A DNA stretch of 64,000 nucleotides from Fervidobacterium pennivorans (GTDB lineage Bacteria; Thermotogota; Thermotogae; Thermotogales; Fervidobacteriaceae). Shown here one piece after another: positions 26,932-36,926 of this stretch. Position 1 is the first letter of the stretch, and every line of letters starts with the position of its first letter. Location of the stretch: contig NZ_CP011393.1 of the NCBI RefSeq assembly GCF_001644665.1, forward strand, positions 1,262,001 to 1,326,000. Direction: 5' to 3'. The notes beneath the pieces are model-generated. The model was not told where the DNA came from, did no database searches, and saw nothing but the letters and a program-made list of their open reading frames with translations. The position numbers and the translations under genes were made by a program.

Positions 26932-28140
26932 ATGTTTGAGAAGAAGGTAAACATCTACAACGTCTTTGAGTTAAGATGCAAAACAACATGCTATTTTGGT
27001 GTAGGTGCGATAGATAAAATGGGGGATATTTCTGAGTATCTTTCAAAACATGGGATGAGAAAAGTAATTGTTGTAACGGACCCTGTTGCATACAAAGTTA
27101 CTGGAGCATGGGATGTTGTGACAAAATACTTCAACGAATTTGGCATAGAATACGTTCTGTATGATAAGGTTACACCAAATCCAACAGTTGAACAGATTGA
27201 TGAAGCAACGAAACTTGGAAAGGATTTTGGTGCACAAGTGGTGTTTGGTATAGGTGGAGGTAGTCCGATAGACACAGCAAAAAGTGTTGCAGTGCTTTTG
27301 GAATACGAAGGGAAAACGGGAGAGGAACTTTACGAAGGAAAATTCACCCCAGAAAAGGCTAAGCCAATTATTGCTATTAACACAACACATGGCACAGGAA
27401 CTGAAGTGGACAGATTTGCTGTTGCCTCGATACTTGAGAAAGAATACAAACCAGCAATTGCTTACGACTGCATTTACCCAGTCTTTTCTATTGATGACCC
27501 GCAACTAATGGTTACACTCCCATACAAACAAACACTTTACACAACTATTGATGCACTTAATCACATCACAGAAGCATCGACAACGCTTGCAAGAAACCCA
27601 TACTCCATACTCTTAGCAAAGGAAACCGTCAGACTTATTGCAACATACTTGCCACAGGCACTCAGCAATCCAAACGACCTTAATGCAAGATATTGGCTAC
27701 TTTACGCATCAGCTATCGCTGGCATTTCTTTCGATAATGGATTACTCCACTTCACTCACGCACTCGAACACCCACTTAGCGCAGTAAAACCAGACCTTGC
27801 ACACGGACTTGGACTTGCAATGCTACTTCCGGCAGTTGTAAAAGAGATTTATCCCTTTGTTGCAGAGATTCTCGCAGAAGTTTTCGAACCGATAGTTCCA
27901 GGTCTTGAAGGAAAGCCAGGAGAAGCAGAAAAAATAGCAAAAGGAATTGAAGACTGGCTTTTCAATATGGGATTAACAGAAAAACTTCAAGATGTTGGTT
28001 TCAGCGAAGAACATGTTGAAAAACTTACAGAGCTTGCTATGACTACTCCATCTTTGGGATTGCTTCTTAGCCAAGCACCAGTAAAAGCAGAAAAAGAGGT
28101 AATATCAAGAATATATAGAAACTCTTTGAGGAGAATGTGA
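26932..28140 (+). CDS. Iron-containing alcohol dehydrogenase
   Basis: This NAD(P)-dependent dehydrogenase belongs to the Fe-ADH (group III) family. The nucleotide motif FGIGGGSPIDTAKSVA and the TTHGTGTEVDRFAV region are clear. Metal ligands fall in the stretch from SFDNGLLHFTHALEHPLS to LAHGLGLAM, with the expected histidines. Its 402 residues are normal. It probably disposes of reducing power by making alcohol during fermentation, though the substrate is not shown. The ATG has GAGGAGG at 8 nt. The IS110 element lies upstream and may have separated it from a promoter. Confidence 0.93.
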   Translation: MFEKKVNIYNVFELRCKTTCYFGVGAIDKMGDISEYLSKHGMRKVIVVTDPVAYKVTGAWDVVTKYFNEFGIEYVLYDKVTPNPTVEQIDEATKLGKDFGAQVVFGIGGGSPIDTAKSVAVLLEYEGKTGEELYEGKFTPEKAKPIIAINTTHGTGTEVDRFAVASILEKEYKPAIAYDCIYPVFSIDDPQLMVTLPYKQTLYTTIDALNHITEASTTLARNPYSILLAKETVRLIATYLPQALSNPNDLNARYWLLYASAIAGISFDNGLLHFTHALEHPLSAVKPDLAHGLGLAMLLPAVVKEIYPFVAEILAEVFEPIVPGLEGKPGEAEKIAKGIEDWLFNMGLTEKLQDVGFSEEHVEKLTELAMTTPSLGLLLSQAPVKAEKEVISRIYRNSLRRM

Positions 28141-28160
28141 GCCTTTTAGAATCTAAAATG

Positions 28161-28197
28161 AAAAACGCTCCGGTTTTGAACCGGAGCGTTATTGTTA
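28161..28197. terminator. Bidirectional terminator between convergent genes
   Basis: AACGCTCCGGTT (28164-28175) pairs with AACCGGAGCGTT (28179-28190) around a 3-nt loop. T-rich sequence follows on both strands. Confidence 0.9.
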
Positions 28198-28207
28198 AGT
28201 TGTAAGG

Positions 28208-28834
28208 TTAGTCACTCATCGGCAAGCTTTTTTTGACCCATTCGTATACATCTTCACATACTCGAAGTGCATCGATGGGTAGTTCTTTGTGTTTATATGC
28301 TTTTAAGATGAGTATTTCATTGTCTTTATATACTATACCTACAGAGGTAAATTGCAACAAATGTTCTTTTAAATCGTAAGGAATATTATCGATTATTTCC
28401 TTAGGTTTTGCGATAAAATACTTTAGAAATGGGGTTTTCTTGGAAATGAAAAATTTCGAAAGACCGCGGGGTACAATTGCAAATTCAGAAATGGGTAACG
28501 ACAAGGTAATACCTTTAACCAGCATGCAGAAATACCTCTGAGAATTATATCTGTTAGACACATACATTTCGAAATAAAAGCGTTTCTCCTCGGTGTCTTC
28601 GTTTGTAAATATATCACTTATTCTAACGGATAACCATCTTAAAGTTGGATGAGCTTTCAATATGCCTTTTAGGATAGAGCGTTCAAATTCGTTATCAGAT
28701 CCAATATATTTATATCCAAACCTTTCAACGTATTCTTTTCTCTTGTTTTGCCTGTTTTTAGACAGGTGGTATATCACTAGCAATTCAATTATTGAACTGG
28801 CAACAACGAACAAAATAATAGTCAACATAACCAT
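28208..28834 (-). CDS. Membrane-anchored protein of unknown function
   Basis: One N-terminal membrane helix (about residues 3-22) is followed by a basic stretch (SKNRQNKRKEYVERFG) and a soluble, probably cytoplasmic domain of about 180 residues. I recognise no motif. The ATG has AAGGTG about 10 nt upstream. It is the last gene of the metal operon, 15 nt after the CYTH fusion gene, so a role at the membrane linked to metal or redox handling is possible but unproven. Confidence 0.65.
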   Translation of the reverse strand: MVMLTIILFVVASSIIELLVIYHLSKNRQNKRKEYVERFGYKYIGSDNEFERSILKGILKAHPTLRWLSVRISDIFTNEDTEEKRFYFEMYVSNRYNSQRYFCMLVKGITLSLPISEFAIVPRGLSKFFISKKTPFLKYFIAKPKEIIDNIPYDLKEHLLQFTSVGIVYKDNEILILKAYKHKELPIDALRVCEDVYEWVKKSLPMSD

Positions 28835-28849
28835 ACAATATCAACACCT

Positions 28850-29917
28850 TTACTCAACACGTGATTTCCCTGTAACATGTTCTAAGACAATTTTTATAAC
28901 TTTTGTGTTTTTACACTCTTCCTCTTCTCCATTTCCATCGACTGGAACATTTATTTTGTATTTTTCAGCAAGCTGAGGCGAATACTTTTTGACAAGTTCA
29001 TAAATCGCTACTCTTTTTTCTACACCTTCTACTAATTCGGCACTGCCAAATGCGATTGCACTTTCATATGCAGTTGTCAATTTTTCTGGCAATACTTTTG
29101 ATTTTGCAGTTACACTGAAGCTGACTTTCGGGTGTTTTGATATATTCTCAAGTTTTTTGCCATCTAGTGCGCAGTGGATATATATTATTCCGTCTTTATA
29201 TGCATAATTAACGGGTACTCCGTATGGGTATTCCCCATCGAATGTTGAAAGCACCCCATATTCGCCTTTTTCTATTATTTCTAGTGCCTTTCCGATAGGA
29301 AGTTCTCTGTCTTTTCGGCGCATCATTTTAAATCTACTAACACCCATTATTTGACGGATTTTTTCAACTATTAATCTTGGAGGGATGGAGCTTACAATAG
29401 CTATATTTTTGTTTGTGTACCTATCAAATTCTTCGTAGTTAAGACCCTTGCCAAGTTCGTATTCTTTTTCATATATTTCGAAATCTTCATGTGTTTCGAT
29501 TTCGACAAGGTATTTGACGGATACATTGTATGGTTTTTCGAGTTCAACGAATTCGTCGAGCACGATTTCAGCAGGTTTTTCGCTGATGAAATATCTTACC
29601 TTTGCTGCGACAGGAATTCTTATCAAAGTATTCCATAGAGATTCGTTAAGTCTTATTTCGTATTCTTCTTCAATTCTTTTGAAACCTTCCATCAACTCCG
29701 ATTTAAAAGCAACAATCCATTTTTCGTTTCCTGTTTCATCAACCATGTATCTGACACGGCAATTTTTGATATTCTTATCCTTAGCAAAATCAAAAAAGGA
29801 GCAGTCCTGTAGATACCATTGGACCACTCCTAGTTTCCATTTTGAAATTGCTTTAAGTTTCTGGGCTTTTTCTTCACTAACAAGGTACTTTTTTTCGCGT
29901 TCAATGCTTTCACTCAT
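28850..29917 (-). CDS. Fusion of CYTH domain and Nim-type flavin-binding domain
   Basis: Residues 1 to about 180 look like a CYTH (triphosphate tunnel) domain: the signature ExExK is present (Glu6, Glu8, Lys10) and basic and acidic strands alternate as expected for binding triphosphates or polyphosphate. From about residue 190 to 340 the protein resembles the pyridoxamine-phosphate-oxidase-like NimA group (GEYGVLSTFDGEYPYGVPV and GIIYIHCALDGKKLENI). I know of no standard family with this order. It lies in an operon with FTR1 and CopA. Function is open. Confidence 0.75.
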   Translation of the reverse strand: MSESIEREKKYLVSEEKAQKLKAISKWKLGVVQWYLQDCSFFDFAKDKNIKNCRVRYMVDETGNEKWIVAFKSELMEGFKRIEEEYEIRLNESLWNTLIRIPVAAKVRYFISEKPAEIVLDEFVELEKPYNVSVKYLVEIETHEDFEIYEKEYELGKGLNYEEFDRYTNKNIAIVSSIPPRLIVEKIRQIMGVSRFKMMRRKDRELPIGKALEIIEKGEYGVLSTFDGEYPYGVPVNYAYKDGIIYIHCALDGKKLENISKHPKVSFSVTAKSKVLPEKLTTAYESAIAFGSAELVEGVEKRVAIYELVKKYSPQLAEKYKINVPVDGNGEEEECKNTKVIKIVLEHVTGKSRVE

Positions 29918-29953
29918 CTTTAACTGTGCTCCTGTCTACATTTCTTGGCATGA

Positions 29954-30160
29954 TTACATGATCGTTGCCGATTCTACAGGATAATCAATTTCTTCGAGCT
30001 TTTGCACTACCCTCTCAATGCTATCCGTTTCAATGACAATTTCCTTCTGAGCAACCCTAATTTCAAAGTTGGTTTCACCAATTTCCTCGAGTGCCTTCGA
30101 AATTCTCATTTTGCAGTGATTGCAAGAAATGTCAGGGACTTTCAATAAATATTGTGCCAT
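29954..30160 (-). CDS. Heavy-metal-associated domain protein, CopZ-like chaperone
   Basis: This 68-residue ferredoxin-like HMA domain carries the metal motif CNHC (Cys13 and Cys16). It probably delivers Cu(I) to the ATPase encoded just upstream. The conserved Met/Thr before the first Cys (MTC) is replaced by DIS, which is a common variant outside copper chaperones, so metal choice is not certain. The ATG has GGAGGG upstream. It starts 13 nt after the ATPase gene ends. Confidence 0.88.
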   Translation of the reverse strand: MAQYLLKVPDISCNHCKMRISKALEEIGETNFEIRVAQKEIVIETDSIERVVQKLEEIDYPVESATIM

Positions 30161-30173
30161 CTTTAACCCTCCT

Positions 30174-32357
30174 TCAACTTTCAGTTTTGAATTTCTTTCG
30201 GATGTTCATAGAATTCAAGATTACTGTTATTGAGCTCATCGCCATGGCTCCTTCTGCAATGGCTGGGTGCAAAAGACCAATCATTGCTAAGGGGATAGCC
30301 ACCACGTTATACAAAAATGCAAACAAAAGGTTTGTTTTGATTGCACCAAACGTAGCTTTCGATATCGATATTACATCTGAAACTTTTGATATACCACCTT
30401 TTGTTATTATGATATCTGCACTATCTATCGCCAAGTCACTTCCACTTCCGATGGCAACCCCAATATCTGCAGCTTTCAAAGCAGCTGCATCATTAATACC
30501 ATCACCAACCATAACTACTTTCTTACCCGTTGCCTGGTATTTTCTCACAATGTCCATTTTTTCTTCTGGTTTTACATTAGCATAAATTTCGTCTATGCCA
30601 ACGATTTTTGCAACATGTATTGCGGTTTTTTCGTTATCACCAGTTACCATCACGGGTATTATACCATGTGATTTTAGTTCTTCGATAGCTTTTTTCGAAT
30701 CTTCACGAACAGTATCTTCCAACGCGAAGAAACCTATGATTATGTCGTTTTTACACACTTCAACAATGGACATACCTCTAGAAGTGTATTCTTCGTAACT
30801 CGACACATCCTTAGGTTTTCCAATGAAGTATTCGTCAGTTCCAATTTTTGCTTTCAAACCCTTGCCGTGTATTTCTTCGAATCCGTTGATTGTTTCACAT
30901 CCATCAGTTGTGTCGATTATTTCAGTTGTGTTTAAATACTCTGAAATGGCTTTAGAAAGAGGATGAGTCGATAATTGTATGATTTGTTTTACTTTTTTGC
31001 GTTCGTCAACCGGTAGGTTCTCTACCGCTACACGAGGTTTTCCATAGGTTATCGTTCCGGTTTTGTCAAAAAGAACATATCCTACATTCTTAACCGTTTG
31101 TATCGCCTCTGCGTTTTTTATCAAAAGCCCTTTCTTTGCTGCAAGAGAAGTTCCAACTATCAAAGCCATCGGAGTTGCAAGTCCAAGTGCACAGGGACAC
31201 GCAATGACAACTGTTGTTAAGAAGACGAAAATTGAAAACGACAGTCTATCAATTTCATGCAATGACCATGGCAACATCAAGCGTATCGAATGCGTTAAGT
31301 CGCTTAAAGAATCAAAATTGAAATACCAGAGAAATGCACTTAGAAGAGCTAAACTGATAATTGTTGGGACGAAATAATTCGTTATCCTGTCAGCAAGTTG
31401 TTGGATTGGGACCTTTGCCCCCTGTGCTTCTTGAACAAGAGCTATCATTTTAGATAGGAACGTATCTTCACCAACTCTTGTAACCTTAATTTTCAAAACA
31501 CCTGTCAAATTCAAAGCTCCCCCGACTACTTCATCGTTTACCCCCTTTTCAACAGGGATGGATTCACCTGTTATCATAGATTCATCGACAGAAGAATGCC
31601 CTTCAACAATTATTCCGTCAGCGGGTATTCTCTCACCAGGTTTAACAAGAGCTAGTAGTCCTTCCTTAACAGCCTCGATAGGAACCAATAATTCGCCTTT
31701 GTCTGTAATTATTCTTGCCTCTTTCGACTGTAGTGCCAGCAATTCCTTAACCTGTTTTGATGCTTTGTCCCTAAGGGTAGATTCTATATATCTTCCTACA
31801 AGGTGGAGAGAGACTATCATTGCACCAATCGTACCAAATGGGTGTATAGATAGACCAAAGTAAGTAGTAACATTTGTTAACCACGCAGTTACAGCTCCAA
31901 AAAATATCAAAGTATCCATATTCGAATGTTTGTGCAAGAGTGCAATTGTTGCACCGCGGATAGTGTCTCTTCCTGCATAGAAAATGACAATCGCTGAGAA
32001 AATTAGTTCTATCTCTTTGAAAAACGGGACGTGTTTTCCAGACATGTGCAGAAACATAAGGACCATGAGGGGTATAGTTATTGTAAGAGAAATGTATGTA
32101 TTCTTTTTGATTCTTTTAAGCCTTTTTTTTTCGATGGCTTCAAGAGGTTCGTCTGAAACCCCGTAACCAACACTTTCGACAGCTTTCTGAAGAACTTCAT
32201 CAGGTACATCTTTTTCCAACACAACGAAAGCAGTGTTTGTTGCCAAATTTACAGCTGCAAACTTAACCCCATCAACTTTTGACAGAGATTTTTCAACTAT
32301 CCTTGCACAATTTGCACAAGTCATTCCGGTTATCTTTAAACTCTTTTTCTGCTCCAT
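30174..32357 (-). CDS. copA: Copper-type P1B ATPase
   Basis: This pump uses ATP to move soft metals, most likely Cu(I), across the membrane. One N-terminal HMA domain has GMTCANC (Cys14, Cys17). TGES (263-266) is the actuator, CPC (387-389) the metal site in the sixth helix, and Asp431 in DKTGT the phosphorylated residue. The late [10 protein letters not shown] closes the ATP domain. The 727 residues are complete. The CPC motif fits copper or silver rather than zinc. It follows the FTR1 gene by 9 nt and precedes an HMA chaperone. Confidence 0.93.
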
Positions 32358-32366
32358 ACATCTTAC

Positions 32367-33068
32367 CTACGCTTTTGAAAAAATGCGTTTCAAATCTTCA
32401 TCGAAGAATAGGATGATCATAGATACAAAATAAATTCCAATGAGCAACAATTCGTAAAATTCACCAGCTATTTCAAATAGATCCACAATCCCCTCGCCGA
32501 ACATTTCTGCACCCAGGACTATTAGAACTACACCCAAGAACTTGAAAATCCTCTTAATGTTTATCTTGATAGCATATTTGAACATTGCAAAAACCAAGCC
32601 AACTGCCAAAACCAAGCCAATTAAGATCCCAGTTATAGTTTCGAACGAATTCTTCCCAATACTTGCGAGTGTAAATACAACCAACTCTATGCCTTCCCTC
32701 AAAACTGATATGAAGGCTAATGAAAACAAACCAATTGAAGATGAACGCCTATCGACATTTTCCTTGAGATTCTTAGCTATGTTTTTATTCTGCCTGCCAA
32801 TCCAAACAACCACATATGTTATTAAGACTGATGCAATGAGTTTCATTAATGCTTCAAAAAACTCTCTTTCCGCACCTTCCGACGTACTCATTTGTAAATA
32901 ACTTAGTAGACCTACTATCAAGCTTGCTATAACCCCACCAAAAGTTCCGTAAAGCACATACTTAATCAAAGTGTCCCTTCCAGATTGTTTTAAATATGTG
33001 AGTATAATACCAACTAAAAGAGCAGCCTCAAAAACCTCGCGAAAAGATAGGAAGAATGTCTGTAACAA
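32367..33068 (-). CDS. FTR1-family iron permease
   Basis: About seven membrane segments carry two RExxE motifs, REVFE (residues 10-14) and REGIE (124-128), the iron-binding hallmark of FTR1/EfeU permeases. In bacteria these import oxidised or free ferrous iron, often with EfeO and EfeB, which are absent here. The TTG at 33068 is preferred since GGAGGTG lies 6 nt before it; a GTG at 33077 overlaps that site. It is first in the operon with copA. Confidence 0.9.
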   Translation of the reverse strand: MLQTFFLSFREVFEAALLVGIILTYLKQSGRDTLIKYVLYGTFGGVIASLIVGLLSYLQMSTSEGAEREFFEALMKLIASVLITYVVVWIGRQNKNIAKNLKENVDRRSSSIGLFSLAFISVLREGIELVVFTLASIGKNSFETITGILIGLVLAVGLVFAMFKYAIKINIKRIFKFLGVVLIVLGAEMFGEGIVDLFEIAGEFYELLLIGIYFVSMIILFFDEDLKRIFSKA

Positions 33069-33106
33069 ACCAAGCACCTCCTCGACTTATTTGAATTCCC
33101 AATAAA

Positions 33107-33135
33107 ATTATATCAAATGTATTGAATAAGTCAAT
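33107..33135 (-). promoter_or_regulatory. Promoter of the metal operon with overlapping inverted repeat
   Basis: On the minus strand TTGACT (33129-33134), a 16-bp spacer and TATAAT (33107-33112). The inverted repeat ATTGA-N5-TCAAT (33121-33135) covers the -35. A further inverted pair, GACTTATT (33084-33091) and AATAAGTC (33125-33132), flanks the promoter. Confidence 0.6.
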
Positions 33136-33240
33136 AAGGTAAAACTAATTAGAAATACGAAATAATTTAGAAAAAACAAATATGGACAGAGGATACGATT
33201 TTAAGGCATTTAGACGAGGGGTTAATTGAACTGAGTAATA

Positions 33241-34383
33241 CTAAACGTTAAGGTTAGAAGCGAGGAAGAAGTAAAGGTTGTTATTTTTTGCATAGTACAT
33301 AGCAACATCGGCTTTTAATAACAAATCACCGAAGGATGTTGCATCTTTTGGATAAATTGCTATGCCGAAATTTGCGGATACGTTTATTGTATTTTCTTCA
33401 TACTGTATGGGTTTTTCGAGTTCGTTAATAACTCTTTCTACAAATTGAACATACTCCTTGCAATCGTAAAGGAGATAAACAAATTCATCTCCGCCAACTC
33501 TTGCAAGAAAATCACTTTTTCGCATGACTGATGAGAGTCGCTGAGCTACCACTGAAATAACATAATCACCAGCTTTATGTCCAAATCTATCGTTAACGGG
33601 TTTAAAATTCTTCAGATCAACATATACAACGCACACCTGTTTTCCTTCCCTATTTGCTAGTGCGAGCATTCTTTCTGCTTCATTTTCAAGAGCTCTTCTA
33701 TTTGGAAGGTTGGTGAGCGGGTCTCTCAAAGAGATGTATTCAAGATATTCTTTTTGTTTTTGTAGTTCATTTTCAAGCTTTATCCTTTCGAAAACAACAC
33801 CAACTTGATTGGCAAAAACTGTAGCTATTCTTATTGAAAATTCATTAAAAGCTTTTTCGTCTTCAAAATTATCAAGGTTAAGGAAAGCTACTATCTCATT
33901 TTCCACAGATATCGGAACAGAGAGCATGGCTTTAATTTCTGAGATTCTTCCGTATTTCAGAAGAATTTCCTGACGCTCGTCCATAATTTTTGTAGAATCA
34001 AATTCGTCAAGATGCGTGATAATTTTCACTTGCCCGTCTAAGCTTTGTGCAAGTTCTTCAGGTTTGAATTTTACCTTCGATAACTGAGCAAAATCGTAAC
34101 CTACACACGCAGCAAATTCATAGTAGTCTCCGTTTTTAATCAAAACAGAGCCGGCTTGTGCACCAGGAATAATTTCAACCGCTTTTTCAAGTATGAATTG
34201 ATAACTTGGAGCAAGAATACCCTTAAGGAGCCCTTGAGTCAGTTCGGTTATCGCTTCAAGGGATTTATTCAATGTTTCTTCCATTTTTAACAGTTTTTGT
34301 GTTTTGAACTCGTTTACAAATAACGTAATCGATACAATCAGAACCAAAAAGAGCAGTATTAGGAATATTTCTTTAATAGTCAA
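33241..34383 (-). CDS. Diguanylate cyclase, membrane helix plus GAF and GGDEF domains
   Basis: This half of a cyclic-di-GMP synthase begins with one membrane helix (residues 4-23), then a GAF domain (about 55-200) and a GGDEF domain. DPLTNLPNRR (221-230) opens the cyclase domain, GGDEF (297-301) is intact and catalytic, and RKSD (288-291) forms the product-inhibition site five residues before it. The TTG start overlaps the stop of the upstream sensor gene by 4 nt. The single leading helix suggests it was, or still is, the second half of a longer receptor. Confidence 0.9.
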   Translation of the reverse strand: MTIKEIFLILLFLVLIVSITLFVNEFKTQKLLKMEETLNKSLEAITELTQGLLKGILAPSYQFILEKAVEIIPGAQAGSVLIKNGDYYEFAACVGYDFAQLSKVKFKPEELAQSLDGQVKIITHLDEFDSTKIMDERQEILLKYGRISEIKAMLSVPISVENEIVAFLNLDNFEDEKAFNEFSIRIATVFANQVGVVFERIKLENELQKQKEYLEYISLRDPLTNLPNRRALENEAERMLALANREGKQVCVVYVDLKNFKPVNDRFGHKAGDYVISVVAQRLSSVMRKSDFLARVGGDEFVYLLYDCKEYVQFVERVINELEKPIQYEENTINVSANFGIAIYPKDATSFGDLLLKADVAMYYAKNNNLYFFLASNLNV

Positions 34384-34901
34384 AAATCTTTCGTATTTAA
34401 ACCATAGACAAAGTCTTTTGATAGTGTTCTATCACCAGAAGAAATTTTTATCCCTTTTATCTGATATTTTTCGAGGATATAGCTTGCGTCTAATTTGACA
34501 ACAGCAAACTTATCAGGCAAATATGAATTACCGAATGAGTCCAAAATCTTAAAGCGCATCAATAACAAGGTGCCTTCTGATGTGATTTCAAAATAACCAG
34601 TTGGGGGATAACCAGAAGAGAACTCCACATAATTCACATATGGATAGTCTTTTCGTATAATTTTCTTGACGTTATTGATGAAATTGGAATCATTATTTTT
34701 GAGTGCTTCATAAAGCTCGGTCCATTGGAAATATGCAAATGAGATGTTAACCGCTTCATTTTCAATGACTATACGTGCTAACTTTTTTAAGTTTTCGTCT
34801 TCATTATAGATGAAAAAATTCATTCCTATGATGAAAGATATGATAATTGTCAAAAGAAAAATTAGAAATTTCCAATTTGCAAGTCTTAGGAAACCCATCA
34901 T
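34380..34901 (-). CDS. Extracytoplasmic sensor half of a split diguanylate cyclase
   Basis: A membrane helix (about residues 11-31) is followed by about 140 residues that look like a CHASE-type ligand-binding domain, ending abruptly at NTKDF. The stop falls in a run of five T residues, and one extra T would fuse it in frame to the GGDEF protein, giving the usual helix-sensor-helix-GAF-GGDEF layout of about 553 residues. The ATG has GAGAGGT upstream. It could also be a genuine two-gene arrangement. Confidence 0.72.
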   Translation of the reverse strand: MMGFLRLANWKFLIFLLTIIISFIIGMNFFIYNEDENLKKLARIVIENEAVNISFAYFQWTELYEALKNNDSNFINNVKKIIRKDYPYVNYVEFSSGYPPTGYFEITSEGTLLLMRFKILDSFGNSYLPDKFAVVKLDASYILEKYQIKGIKISSGDRTLSKDFVYGLNTKDF

Positions 34902-35045
34902 ACCGACCTCTCATAGAATGGATTTTCATGTGATATTATACCACCTAAACAAGTAAAAATGATGAAATGTCTATAAAAATCTTAAGCTCTTGTGATAAAA
35001 TATAATAAAAAAACCAGAATCCCAGCAACTAAAGAGGTGATATGA

Positions 35046-35975
35046 ATGATATTTACTTTAACTATGAACCCATGCCTTGATAGGTACATTTATGTTGATG
35101 AATTAATTGTGGATGATACTATCCGTGCCAAGAAAGTTGTTGATTACCCAGCAGGTAAAGGAATAGACGTTTCGCGTGTAATCAGAGAACTTGGAGGAGT
35201 ATCGATAGCTATTGCGCTTGTTGGTGGAGCTAACGGTAGAAGGCTTGAAGAGATGCTTGATAAGGAAGGAGTCATATACTCATCCATACGCGTTCCTCAA
35301 GAGACGAGAATGAATATTATCTTGGAAACGAGCAAAGGGCAATATCGAATAAGTATGCCCGGTGAAAAAATAGGTGTGAAGAAATTGCAGGTTGTTTTGG
35401 AAGTGCTCAATGCCTTGGTGCGCCAGGGAGATGTTGTTGTAGTGTCCGGTAGCCTTCCAAAAGGAGTTGCAGCCGAGTTCTATACTGGAATCATCTTTAC
35501 TTTAAAACAATGGGGAGCAACTGTTTACTTTGACTCTGATGGAGATAAACTAAAAGCTGGGTTGATAGGCCAACCGGATTATATTAAGCCAAATTTACAC
35601 GAGTTTCAAAGATTGATAGGCAAAAATGTATCCTCTAGAGAAGAAATTATCTCAGAAGCGAGAAAGGTTATAGAAATTCACGAACTGAAAGCTATTCTTT
35701 TAACTCTTGGCGGTGAAGGTGCGTATTTTATTTCTAACGAAAAAGTATTGTACACAAAAACCATAAAGGTTCCTGTTAAAAGTGCAGTTGGCGCTGGTGA
35801 TTCTTTCCTTGCGGGGTTTGTGTTGAAGAAAACAGAAGGTGCTTCTGATGAGGAAGCGTTGAGATGGGCGAACGCATCAGGAACAGCGGCAGTCATGACC
35901 CCTGGAACGAGGCTGTGTAGAAAATCCGATGTGGAAAAATTACTTGAGAAAGTGGAAGTGGAGAGAATAGAGTAG
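35046..35975 (+). CDS. 1-phosphofructokinase-type PfkB sugar kinase
   Basis: A ribokinase-fold kinase of the 1-phosphofructokinase/tagatose-6-phosphate kinase group. The N-terminal TLTMNPCLDRYIYVDEL is typical, AGKGIDVSRVIRELGG is the substrate motif, and SAVGAGDSFLAGFV holds the catalytic base and anion hole. Its 309 residues are complete. No PTS or fructose gene is adjacent, so the exact sugar phosphate is open; a role with the flanking carbohydrate locus is possible. The ATG has AAGAGGTGAT upstream, and a terminator follows. Confidence 0.88.
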   Translation: MIFTLTMNPCLDRYIYVDELIVDDTIRAKKVVDYPAGKGIDVSRVIRELGGVSIAIALVGGANGRRLEEMLDKEGVIYSSIRVPQETRMNIILETSKGQYRISMPGEKIGVKKLQVVLEVLNALVRQGDVVVVSGSLPKGVAAEFYTGIIFTLKQWGATVYFDSDGDKLKAGLIGQPDYIKPNLHEFQRLIGKNVSSREEIISEARKVIEIHELKAILLTLGGEGAYFISNEKVLYTKTIKVPVKSAVGAGDSFLAGFVLKKTEGASDEEALRWANASGTAAVMTPGTRLCRKSDVEKLLEKVEVERIE

Positions 35976-35990
35976 AATTTAAAATTATCA

Positions 35991-36023
35991 AAGAAGAAGG
36001 GGTGAGCCCCCTTCTTCGTTTTT
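35991..36023. terminator. Terminator between the kinase and GH130 genes
   Basis: GAAGAAGGGG (35993-36002) pairs with CCCCTTCTTC (36008-36017), followed by T-rich sequence on the plus strand and a weaker T tract on the minus strand. Confidence 0.88.
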
Positions 36024-36035
36024 GAAAGGTTTTGC

Positions 36036-36926
36036 TTATATTTTCCTACACCATTCCAAAACTTTCTCTACATCAATTGTTGCAAGTGCTATATAATTAT
36101 CAGCAGCTCCATAGTAAACGTAATACTTGCCCTTATATTCAACCATAGCATCACTGAAGACTACGTTTGGAACTCCACCGAAAACTTCCCATTCTTCCGT
36201 GGGTTCTAGAATTGGTTCTTCGCTCCTCTTAAGTATTTTTGTCGGGTCGTTTAGGTCAAGCAACATGAAACCTAATCTGTAAATTGGTCTTGGTGCATCT
36301 TCAACACCGTGGTATAGCAACAACCATCCATATGGTGTTTTGATTGGTGGTGCGCCGGCACCAATTTTCAGGTTATCCCAGTATCCTTGTCTGGGACCTG
36401 CTATGCTTACGTAATCTCCCCAGTTAATCAGATCATCAGAAAATGCAAGCCAGATATCTGGTTCAAACCGATGCATCATGACGTATCTTCCGTTTATCCT
36501 TTCAGGAAATAAGGCAGCATCTTTGTTATTTATCTCGTCTTTTATAACAATTCCATAACGTTCCCAAGTTATGAAATTTTTAGTTGATGCAAGTGCAACC
36601 CTCGGACCTTTTGGTGAATAAGCTGTATAAAGCATGTAATACCTATCGACGATTTTCGTAATTCTTGGGTCTTCCACCCCATAGAGTTCTTCTTTTGATG
36701 CAGGTGTAAATACGGGGTTCTCTAATCGGTTAAATTTGATACCGTCTAAACTTACAGCGTATCCTATGCGTGAGACCATGTCCGCACCTTGCGCTCGATA
36801 AAGCATATGGAACAACTCTCCATCAAAAACCACTGCACAATTGAAAACGAACTTGTTCTCCCACAGATGTTCCGGAACAGGACTTAATATTGGGTTAAGT
36901 GGGTGTCGTTCAAGTTTTAACTCCAC
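36036..36926 (-). CDS. GH130 family beta-mannoside phosphorylase or related
   Basis: GH130 enzymes phosphorolyse or hydrolyse beta-mannosides and related glycans. The five-bladed propeller fold is suggested by repeats such as NPILSP, MLYRAQG, GVEDPRITK and LLYHGV. GVEDPRI carries the acid residue typical of the family. It has no signal peptide, so it acts inside the cell. The GTG start has GGAGG at 9 nt. It ends the lacI-SBP-permease operon and probably processes the imported oligosaccharide. Confidence 0.88.
   Translation of the reverse strand: MELKLERHPLNPILSPVPEHLWENKFVFNCAVVFDGELFHMLYRAQGADMVSRIGYAVSLDGIKFNRLENPVFTPASKEELYGVEDPRITKIVDRYYMLYTAYSPKGPRVALASTKNFITWERYGIVIKDEINNKDAALFPERINGRYVMMHRFEPDIWLAFSDDLINWGDYVSIAGPRQGYWDNLKIGAGAPPIKTPYGWLLLYHGVEDAPRPIYRLGFMLLDLNDPTKILKRSEEPILEPTEEWEVFGGVPNVVFSDAMVEYKGKYYVYYGAADNYIALATIDVEKVLEWCRKI

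Follow-up and report, generated by a model that had tools for sequence, protein, structure and literature searches.

For the CYTH/TTM proteins AtTTM3 and YgiF, a two-metal mechanism has been described together with the essential residues (PMC4641920), and Tyr-28/Lys-52 was proposed as the catalytic dyad of NeuTTM (PMC3440374). Motif rules that split TTM hydrolases, cyclases and ThTPases have been published, and HD, exopolyphosphatase, nucleotidyl kinase and CHAD have been reported as fusion partners of CYTH domains (PMC8233210). Loss of the CYTH-CHAD protein YgiF makes E. coli copper-sensitive, and the single domains rescue this phenotype partly, CHAD better than CYTH (PMC10892726). Among Nim proteins, CdNimB was shown to need heme at His55 (His55-Cys56), and mutation of His61 left resistance intact (PMC10338468).

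The protein described here is encoded in a window of 64,000 nucleotides from Fervidobacterium pennivorans (contig NZ_CP011393.1, positions 1,262,001 to 1,326,000) and combines both kinds of domain in one chain. As in NeuTTM, AtTTM3, YgiF and SaTTM, its CYTH half has a predicted eight-stranded tunnel with ExExK, RxR, Lys, KxR and a C-terminal ExE, but, unlike the known TTM/CYTH tripolyphosphatases, it belongs to a branch missed by the Pfam CYTH profile and bears a C-terminal Nim domain. With the Nim reductases (NimA-F, CdNimB, DrNimA) it shares PF12900, the proximal His and the PPOX split barrel, whereas the CYTH domain, GKK in place of GHK, a longer C-terminal insert and a sub-equivalog score set it apart from them. 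YgiF likewise carries an accessory domain C-terminal to CYTH and has a reported link to copper tolerance; its CHAD domain, however, is helical and binds polyphosphate and copper, whereas the accessory domain of the fusion is a flavin-type split barrel. The long CYTH proteins of other Thermotogota, in frames of ~860-1090 aa, have a related CYTH half with a different partner and form a separate paralogous lineage, both kinds being carried by two genomes (G009 and G013). The second, diverged CYTH in such ~860-1090 aa frames was seen in L029/L030, G061, G070, G074, G079, G082 and G090, and the rest of L030 contains an HD-type motif, HDLGH.

A preliminary description of this DNA, made from its letters, knew of no described family with both domains, and that statement holds: among the papers searched we found none joining a CYTH domain and nitroimidazole, and no Pfam or NCBIfam model spans both halves. 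CYTH-Nim is a new architecture made from known parts and present in few species. With it, a partner of redox type joins the few published for CYTH domains, and a CYTH branch of the Thermotogota comes to light that the standard profile misses, so that the protein is probably annotated merely as Nim-like or hypothetical. The narrow distribution limits the weight of the finding.

Results

Fusion gene and domains

The gene and its two domains lie in the window as follows:

28850 to 29917, minus strand: CYTH-Nim fusion protein, 355 aa (open reading frame and translation)
29342 to 29917, minus strand: CYTH/TTM domain, about aa 1-192 (invariant columns and TTM fold in models), with the motifs E6-x-E8-x-K10, Q33-W-Y35, R54-x-R56, K72, E83-x-E85, K106-x-R108, D121 and E139-x-E141 and a C-terminal helix at aa 180-191
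28859 to 29332, minus strand: Nim/PPOX split-barrel domain, about aa 196-353 (Pfam, NCBIfam, Foldseek and alignment)

The intact frame of 355 residues occupies exactly 28850-29917 on the minus strand, and stops abound on its plus strand. Because the full-length frame is also open in three further species, whose proteins are 92, 60 and 57% identical to that of the window, the fusion cannot be put down to a sequencing artefact or to a frame open by chance; its retention at full length in four species of Fervidobacterium (57-92% identity) rules out a pseudogene or the read-through of a sequencing error. A search by eye for a separate Nim start inside the frame found internal ATG codons without a convincing ribosome-binding site. 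Among the more diverged fused species, dN was 0.15-0.37 and dS ranged from 2.2 to not computable; this saturation makes exact dN/dS ratios unreliable, but low dN next to saturated dS indicates that both halves are under purifying selection. AlphaFold modelled the whole fusion protein with a pLDDT of 92.9 and a pTM of 0.91.

Sequence profiles failed on the CYTH half, and a comparison of folds was therefore needed. Pfam gave no match to it, PF01928 reaching at best E=0.02 (in 2 of 16 relatives), and a sequence-profile search of the PDB started from the CYTH alignment returned no CYTH protein. Across the nine Fervidobacterium genomes PF01928 was never above its cut-off, whereas 11 of 14 control genomes were positive. 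Modelled alone, the N-terminal half reached a pLDDT of 92.1 and a pTM of 0.87 (pLDDT of residues 1 to ~192: 93), and eight strands were present both in this model and in that of the whole protein. The best Foldseek matches of the half-model in the PDB were AtTTM3 (5a67, E=3.6e-7), PH1819 (2een) and BH2851 (2gfg), with YgiF (5a60) lower, and CYTH/TTM proteins took the first nine places (E 3.6e-7 to 4e-5). Below or among the TTM matches came Mediator subunits and viral capping enzymes, and in the full-length search TTMs ranked under many Nim/PPOX matches. The resemblance to solved CYTH/TTM members is distant, with TM-scores of only about 0.4-0.58 and about 9-24% sequence identity. Judged by these models, the N-terminal half is a TTM/CYTH tunnel fold, an outcome that favours the preliminary description on a check that it had itself named, and we read the PF01928 miss as a limit of the profile, not of the fold. 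The ExExK motif (E6, E8, K10) noted in the preliminary description is present and invariant in 16 relatives, as are Q33, W34, Y35, R54, W67, K72, E83, E85, L98, K106, R108, E117, D121, E139 and E141. PF01928 is blind to this CYTH family (alignment A2, L035-L049) though the catalytic residues are present.

The fusion keeps R54/R56 and E139/E141, lacks HF before ExExK and has N52 at the aromatic position (NCRVR). A class IV adenylyl cyclase (CyaB) was rejected, since HFxxxxExExK, a small residue for the first Arg and Ala for the second Glu are all absent; a thiamine triphosphatase was rejected too, W/YxRxR being absent and Asn standing two residues before R54. Because the second Glu of ExE is kept, the rules of PMC8233210 point to a two-metal hydrolase, and from these motifs the CYTH half is predicted to group with the tripolyphosphatases. 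By our own residue-to-residue mapping, the invariant catalytic residues correspond to those essential in AtTTM3 and YgiF and fit the two-metal mechanism of these proteins, and Y35/K72 would be the counterparts of the NeuTTM dyad. Stand-alone CYTH relatives had no consistent gene partner in the neighbourhoods compared.

In the Nim half, Pyridox_ox_2 (PF12900) was found with E=4.4e-18 and 66 bits against a gathering threshold of 27, and the best NCBIfam model was NimABCDEF (NF000261; E=3e-30, 105 bits, under the 260-bit equivalog cut-off). The nearest solved structures were the Bacteroides Nim 2fg9 (BtNim) and DrNimA (1w3o), and the heme-binding MSMEG_4975, Anf3 and PaiB were also matched by Foldseek. 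The frame, AlphaFold, Foldseek and PF12900 thus bear out the earlier proposal of one protein made of a CYTH tunnel fold and a Nim-type domain.

H248 followed by C249 corresponds to His55-Cys56 of CdNimB, so that the proximal, heme-type His is kept, and in the GHK motif Lys (K254) replaces the second His in each of the four fused proteins (GKK). Loss of a catalytic His was rejected as a reading of this change, since K254 corresponds to His61 and the proximal His remains. HemB and ferrochelatase were not found in the Fervidobacterium genomes tested, which favours a flavin-only Nim and weakens the case for full heme-dependent NimB function; the Nim half is probably in a flavin-only state, scavenged heme being possible. 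Given its long stem in the tree and the change from GHK to GKK, the fused Nim clade may have lost or altered its activity. C335 (window about 28913-28915), in the C-terminal insert of the fused Nim (EC-x-NT), is kept in all four fusions and lacking in the stand-alone Nim proteins of the alignment.

Operon and genomic setting

The fusion gene lies among the following features:

33107 to 33134, minus strand: promoter-like TTGACT-16-TATAAT upstream of the FTR1 gene, 11/12, with TG before the second hexamer (consensus match only)
32367 to 33077, minus strand: FTR1-family permease, first gene of the operon (PF03239, E=3.4e-32)
30174 to 32357, minus strand: P1B-type metal ATPase with HMA domain (MTCANCA, CPC; PF00122, PF00702, PF00403)
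29954 to 30160, minus strand: CopZ-like HMA metallochaperone, 68 aa, CxxC (PF00403, E=4.9e-6)
28208 to 28834, minus strand: 208-aa protein with an N-terminal membrane segment (no Pfam family)
28164 to 28190, minus strand: intrinsic terminator-like hairpin of 12 pairs, after the 208-aa gene (consensus match only)

The order in the window is FTR1 permease, P1B ATPase, CopZ-like HMA protein, CYTH-Nim and 208-aa membrane protein, and 36 bp separate the fusion gene from the CopZ-like gene upstream of it. The metal-operon setting put forward in the preliminary description was confirmed by the Pfam matches of the P1B ATPase, HMA and FTR1 genes. The ATPase has YN-x4-P and MSS motifs, which we take to mark the Cu(I) subgroup. 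In the neighbourhoods compared, FTR1 headed the operon in just two genomes, that of the window and G004, and the 208-aa gene occurred only downstream of fused CYTH-Nim genes. Between G000 and G004 the 208-aa protein has diverged far more than its neighbours.

The order ATPase-HMA-CYTH is kept in six Fervidobacterium genomes (G000, G002, G004, G006, G007 and G008), but the CYTH linkage is genus-specific: the order is absent from the other genera compared, and copZ is found widely without CYTH linkage. All four fused and two of three unfused near-complete congeners have an operon that holds a P1B ATPase and an HMA chaperone. In G001 the order is not kept, copZ and CYTH being ~19 kb apart on one contig. 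The metal context is real but genus-specific, and by itself no proof of a metal role. In other genera the CYTH family adjoins a nucleotidyltransferase gene or lies a few genes 3' of a fabD-like gene.

Occurrence of the fusion

Among 103 Thermotogota genomes searched, the fusion of CYTH and Nim was found in Fervidobacterium only, in four of its seven near-complete species. CYTH proteins of ~190 aa and Nim-family genes stand apart in G001, G002 and G006, and in two of the four species with the fusion its Nim domain is the only Nim copy. No fusion spanning both halves was found in plasmids or phages; of two pattern-limited scans of genome contigs, which rare fusions in other phyla could escape, the first found none and the second only a stand-alone CYTH of Thermosipho. 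Thermosipho and Fervidobacterium belong to the same family.

In the Nim tree the fused copies fall into a single clade (support 94/98) on a long stem, and the fusion apparently arose once, as far as the trees indicate; the four fused copies are not grouped in the CYTH-only tree, which does not settle the order of species in the genus. Unfused CYTH proteins stop where the fused ones enter the Nim start (FxxMRRKDREL), so that the two proteins are joined end to end with hardly any linker. In two unfused congeners CYTH closes the same CopA-CopZ operon; one of them is G006, where the unfused CYTH has a hairpin directly 3' of its stop; since this stop runs straight into the hairpin, the fusion lengthened an operon's last gene. 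Sister species that carry the orthologue fused or unfused at one and the same operon position offer a natural before/after pair for asking whether fusing two domains couples their activities.

Discussion

We give a probability of roughly 0.55 to a two-domain enzyme, formed once in the genus, in which the C-terminal helix of a Mg-dependent triphosphatase leads into a dimerising flavin domain. A Nim-type gene would have been joined end to end to CYTH, the last gene of a CopA-CopZ operon, on a single occasion within Fervidobacterium. In the resulting enzyme, E6, E8, E139 and E141 would hold two metals (Mg2+/Mn2+), the triphosphate would be gripped by R54/R56/K72/K106/R108, and the predicted activity is removal of the terminal phosphate of a small triphosphate or of tripolyphosphate. 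For the Nim half we expect a dimeric, flavin-binding split barrel; since Nim-type proteins dimerise, the whole protein would pair as well, its two tunnels flanking the dimer. It would be a compact and probably thermostable test case for what tripolyphosphatases do in bacteria and what Nim proteins do beyond drug resistance.

The main rival, possible but clearly behind the two-domain enzyme, is a neutral event in which Nim insertion at the operon end and loss of the CYTH stop left two independent, uncoupled proteins sharing an mRNA and a polypeptide, with no special role in metal stress. Confinement to four species of one genus, a junction that keeps both natural termini, sister species with CYTH and Nim apart and the frequency of copZ without CYTH linkage all agree with it. 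However, the single frame has persisted across species whose synonymous sites are saturated, a second Nim copy is missing in two of the four fused species, and the fused Nim has conserved features of its own, GKK and C335, which suggests that it has adapted to the fused state.

A copper-stress protein, in which CYTH would bind or cleave short polyphosphate or Cu-nucleotide complexes and Nim would reduce a stress product, giving copper tolerance, seems doubtful to us. PPK1, PPK2 and Ppx/GppA were found in none of nine Fervidobacterium genomes, with positive controls, which counts against this proposal and leaves the polyphosphate link suggested in the preliminary description unsupported for long chains. 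The copper sensitivity that follows loss of YgiF (PMC10892726) would favour such a role, but it is chiefly an effect of CHAD, a domain missing from the fusion. The operon of P1B ATPase and HMA chaperone in all fused and most unfused near-complete congeners (2/3) also speaks for copper, whereas in G001 and in other genera CYTH is not linked to copA/copZ. Of the tie to metal stress drawn earlier, the metal operon itself stands, and the tie is weakened by unrelated CYTH contexts in other genera and by copZ without CYTH.

An extension of the two-domain enzyme concerns its last CYTH helix, a putative tunnel 'plug' helix. Loosening the plug helix of SaTTM doubled activity (PMC8233210), and because Nim starts ~4 residues past the putative plug, a change in flavin or ligand state could make the tunnel looser or tighter. 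The Nim dimer might then sense redox or a nitro/aromatic ligand and shut or open the tunnel through the helix, as a flavin-gated triphosphatase deployed with copper efflux. We think this unlikely, and both plug-helix coupling and a direct role in copper stress are speculative.

The least probable proposal is a NimB-like heme-flavin nitroreductase with CYTH as an inert binding module, for which the conserved proximal H248, at whose equivalent His55 CdNimB needs heme (PMC10338468), and the Foldseek matches to heme-binding MSMEG_4975, Anf3 and PaiB can be cited, but heme would need scavenging in a genus where HemB and ferrochelatase were not found, and the catalytic residues of CYTH are all intact.

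The recent history of the locus can be followed by comparison with G004. From 29034 to 36186 (~7 kb) the window is nearly identical to G004, with 5 mismatches within 30,282-36,066, whereas the flanks differ by ~7-10% and positions 28,100-29,033 by ~35%. A near-identical tract in diverged flanks points to a recent inter-species recombination that carried the metal operon. One of its breakpoints falls within the Nim domain, at ~aa 295, with a dS of 0.036 for CYTH against 0.385 for Nim. A GAF-GGDEF diguanylate cyclase gene at 33241-34901 of the window is split into frames of 380 and 173 aa; it is one frame of 553-568 aa in G004, G008 and G007 and is split in G006 too. The split is either a real frameshift or an assembly error.
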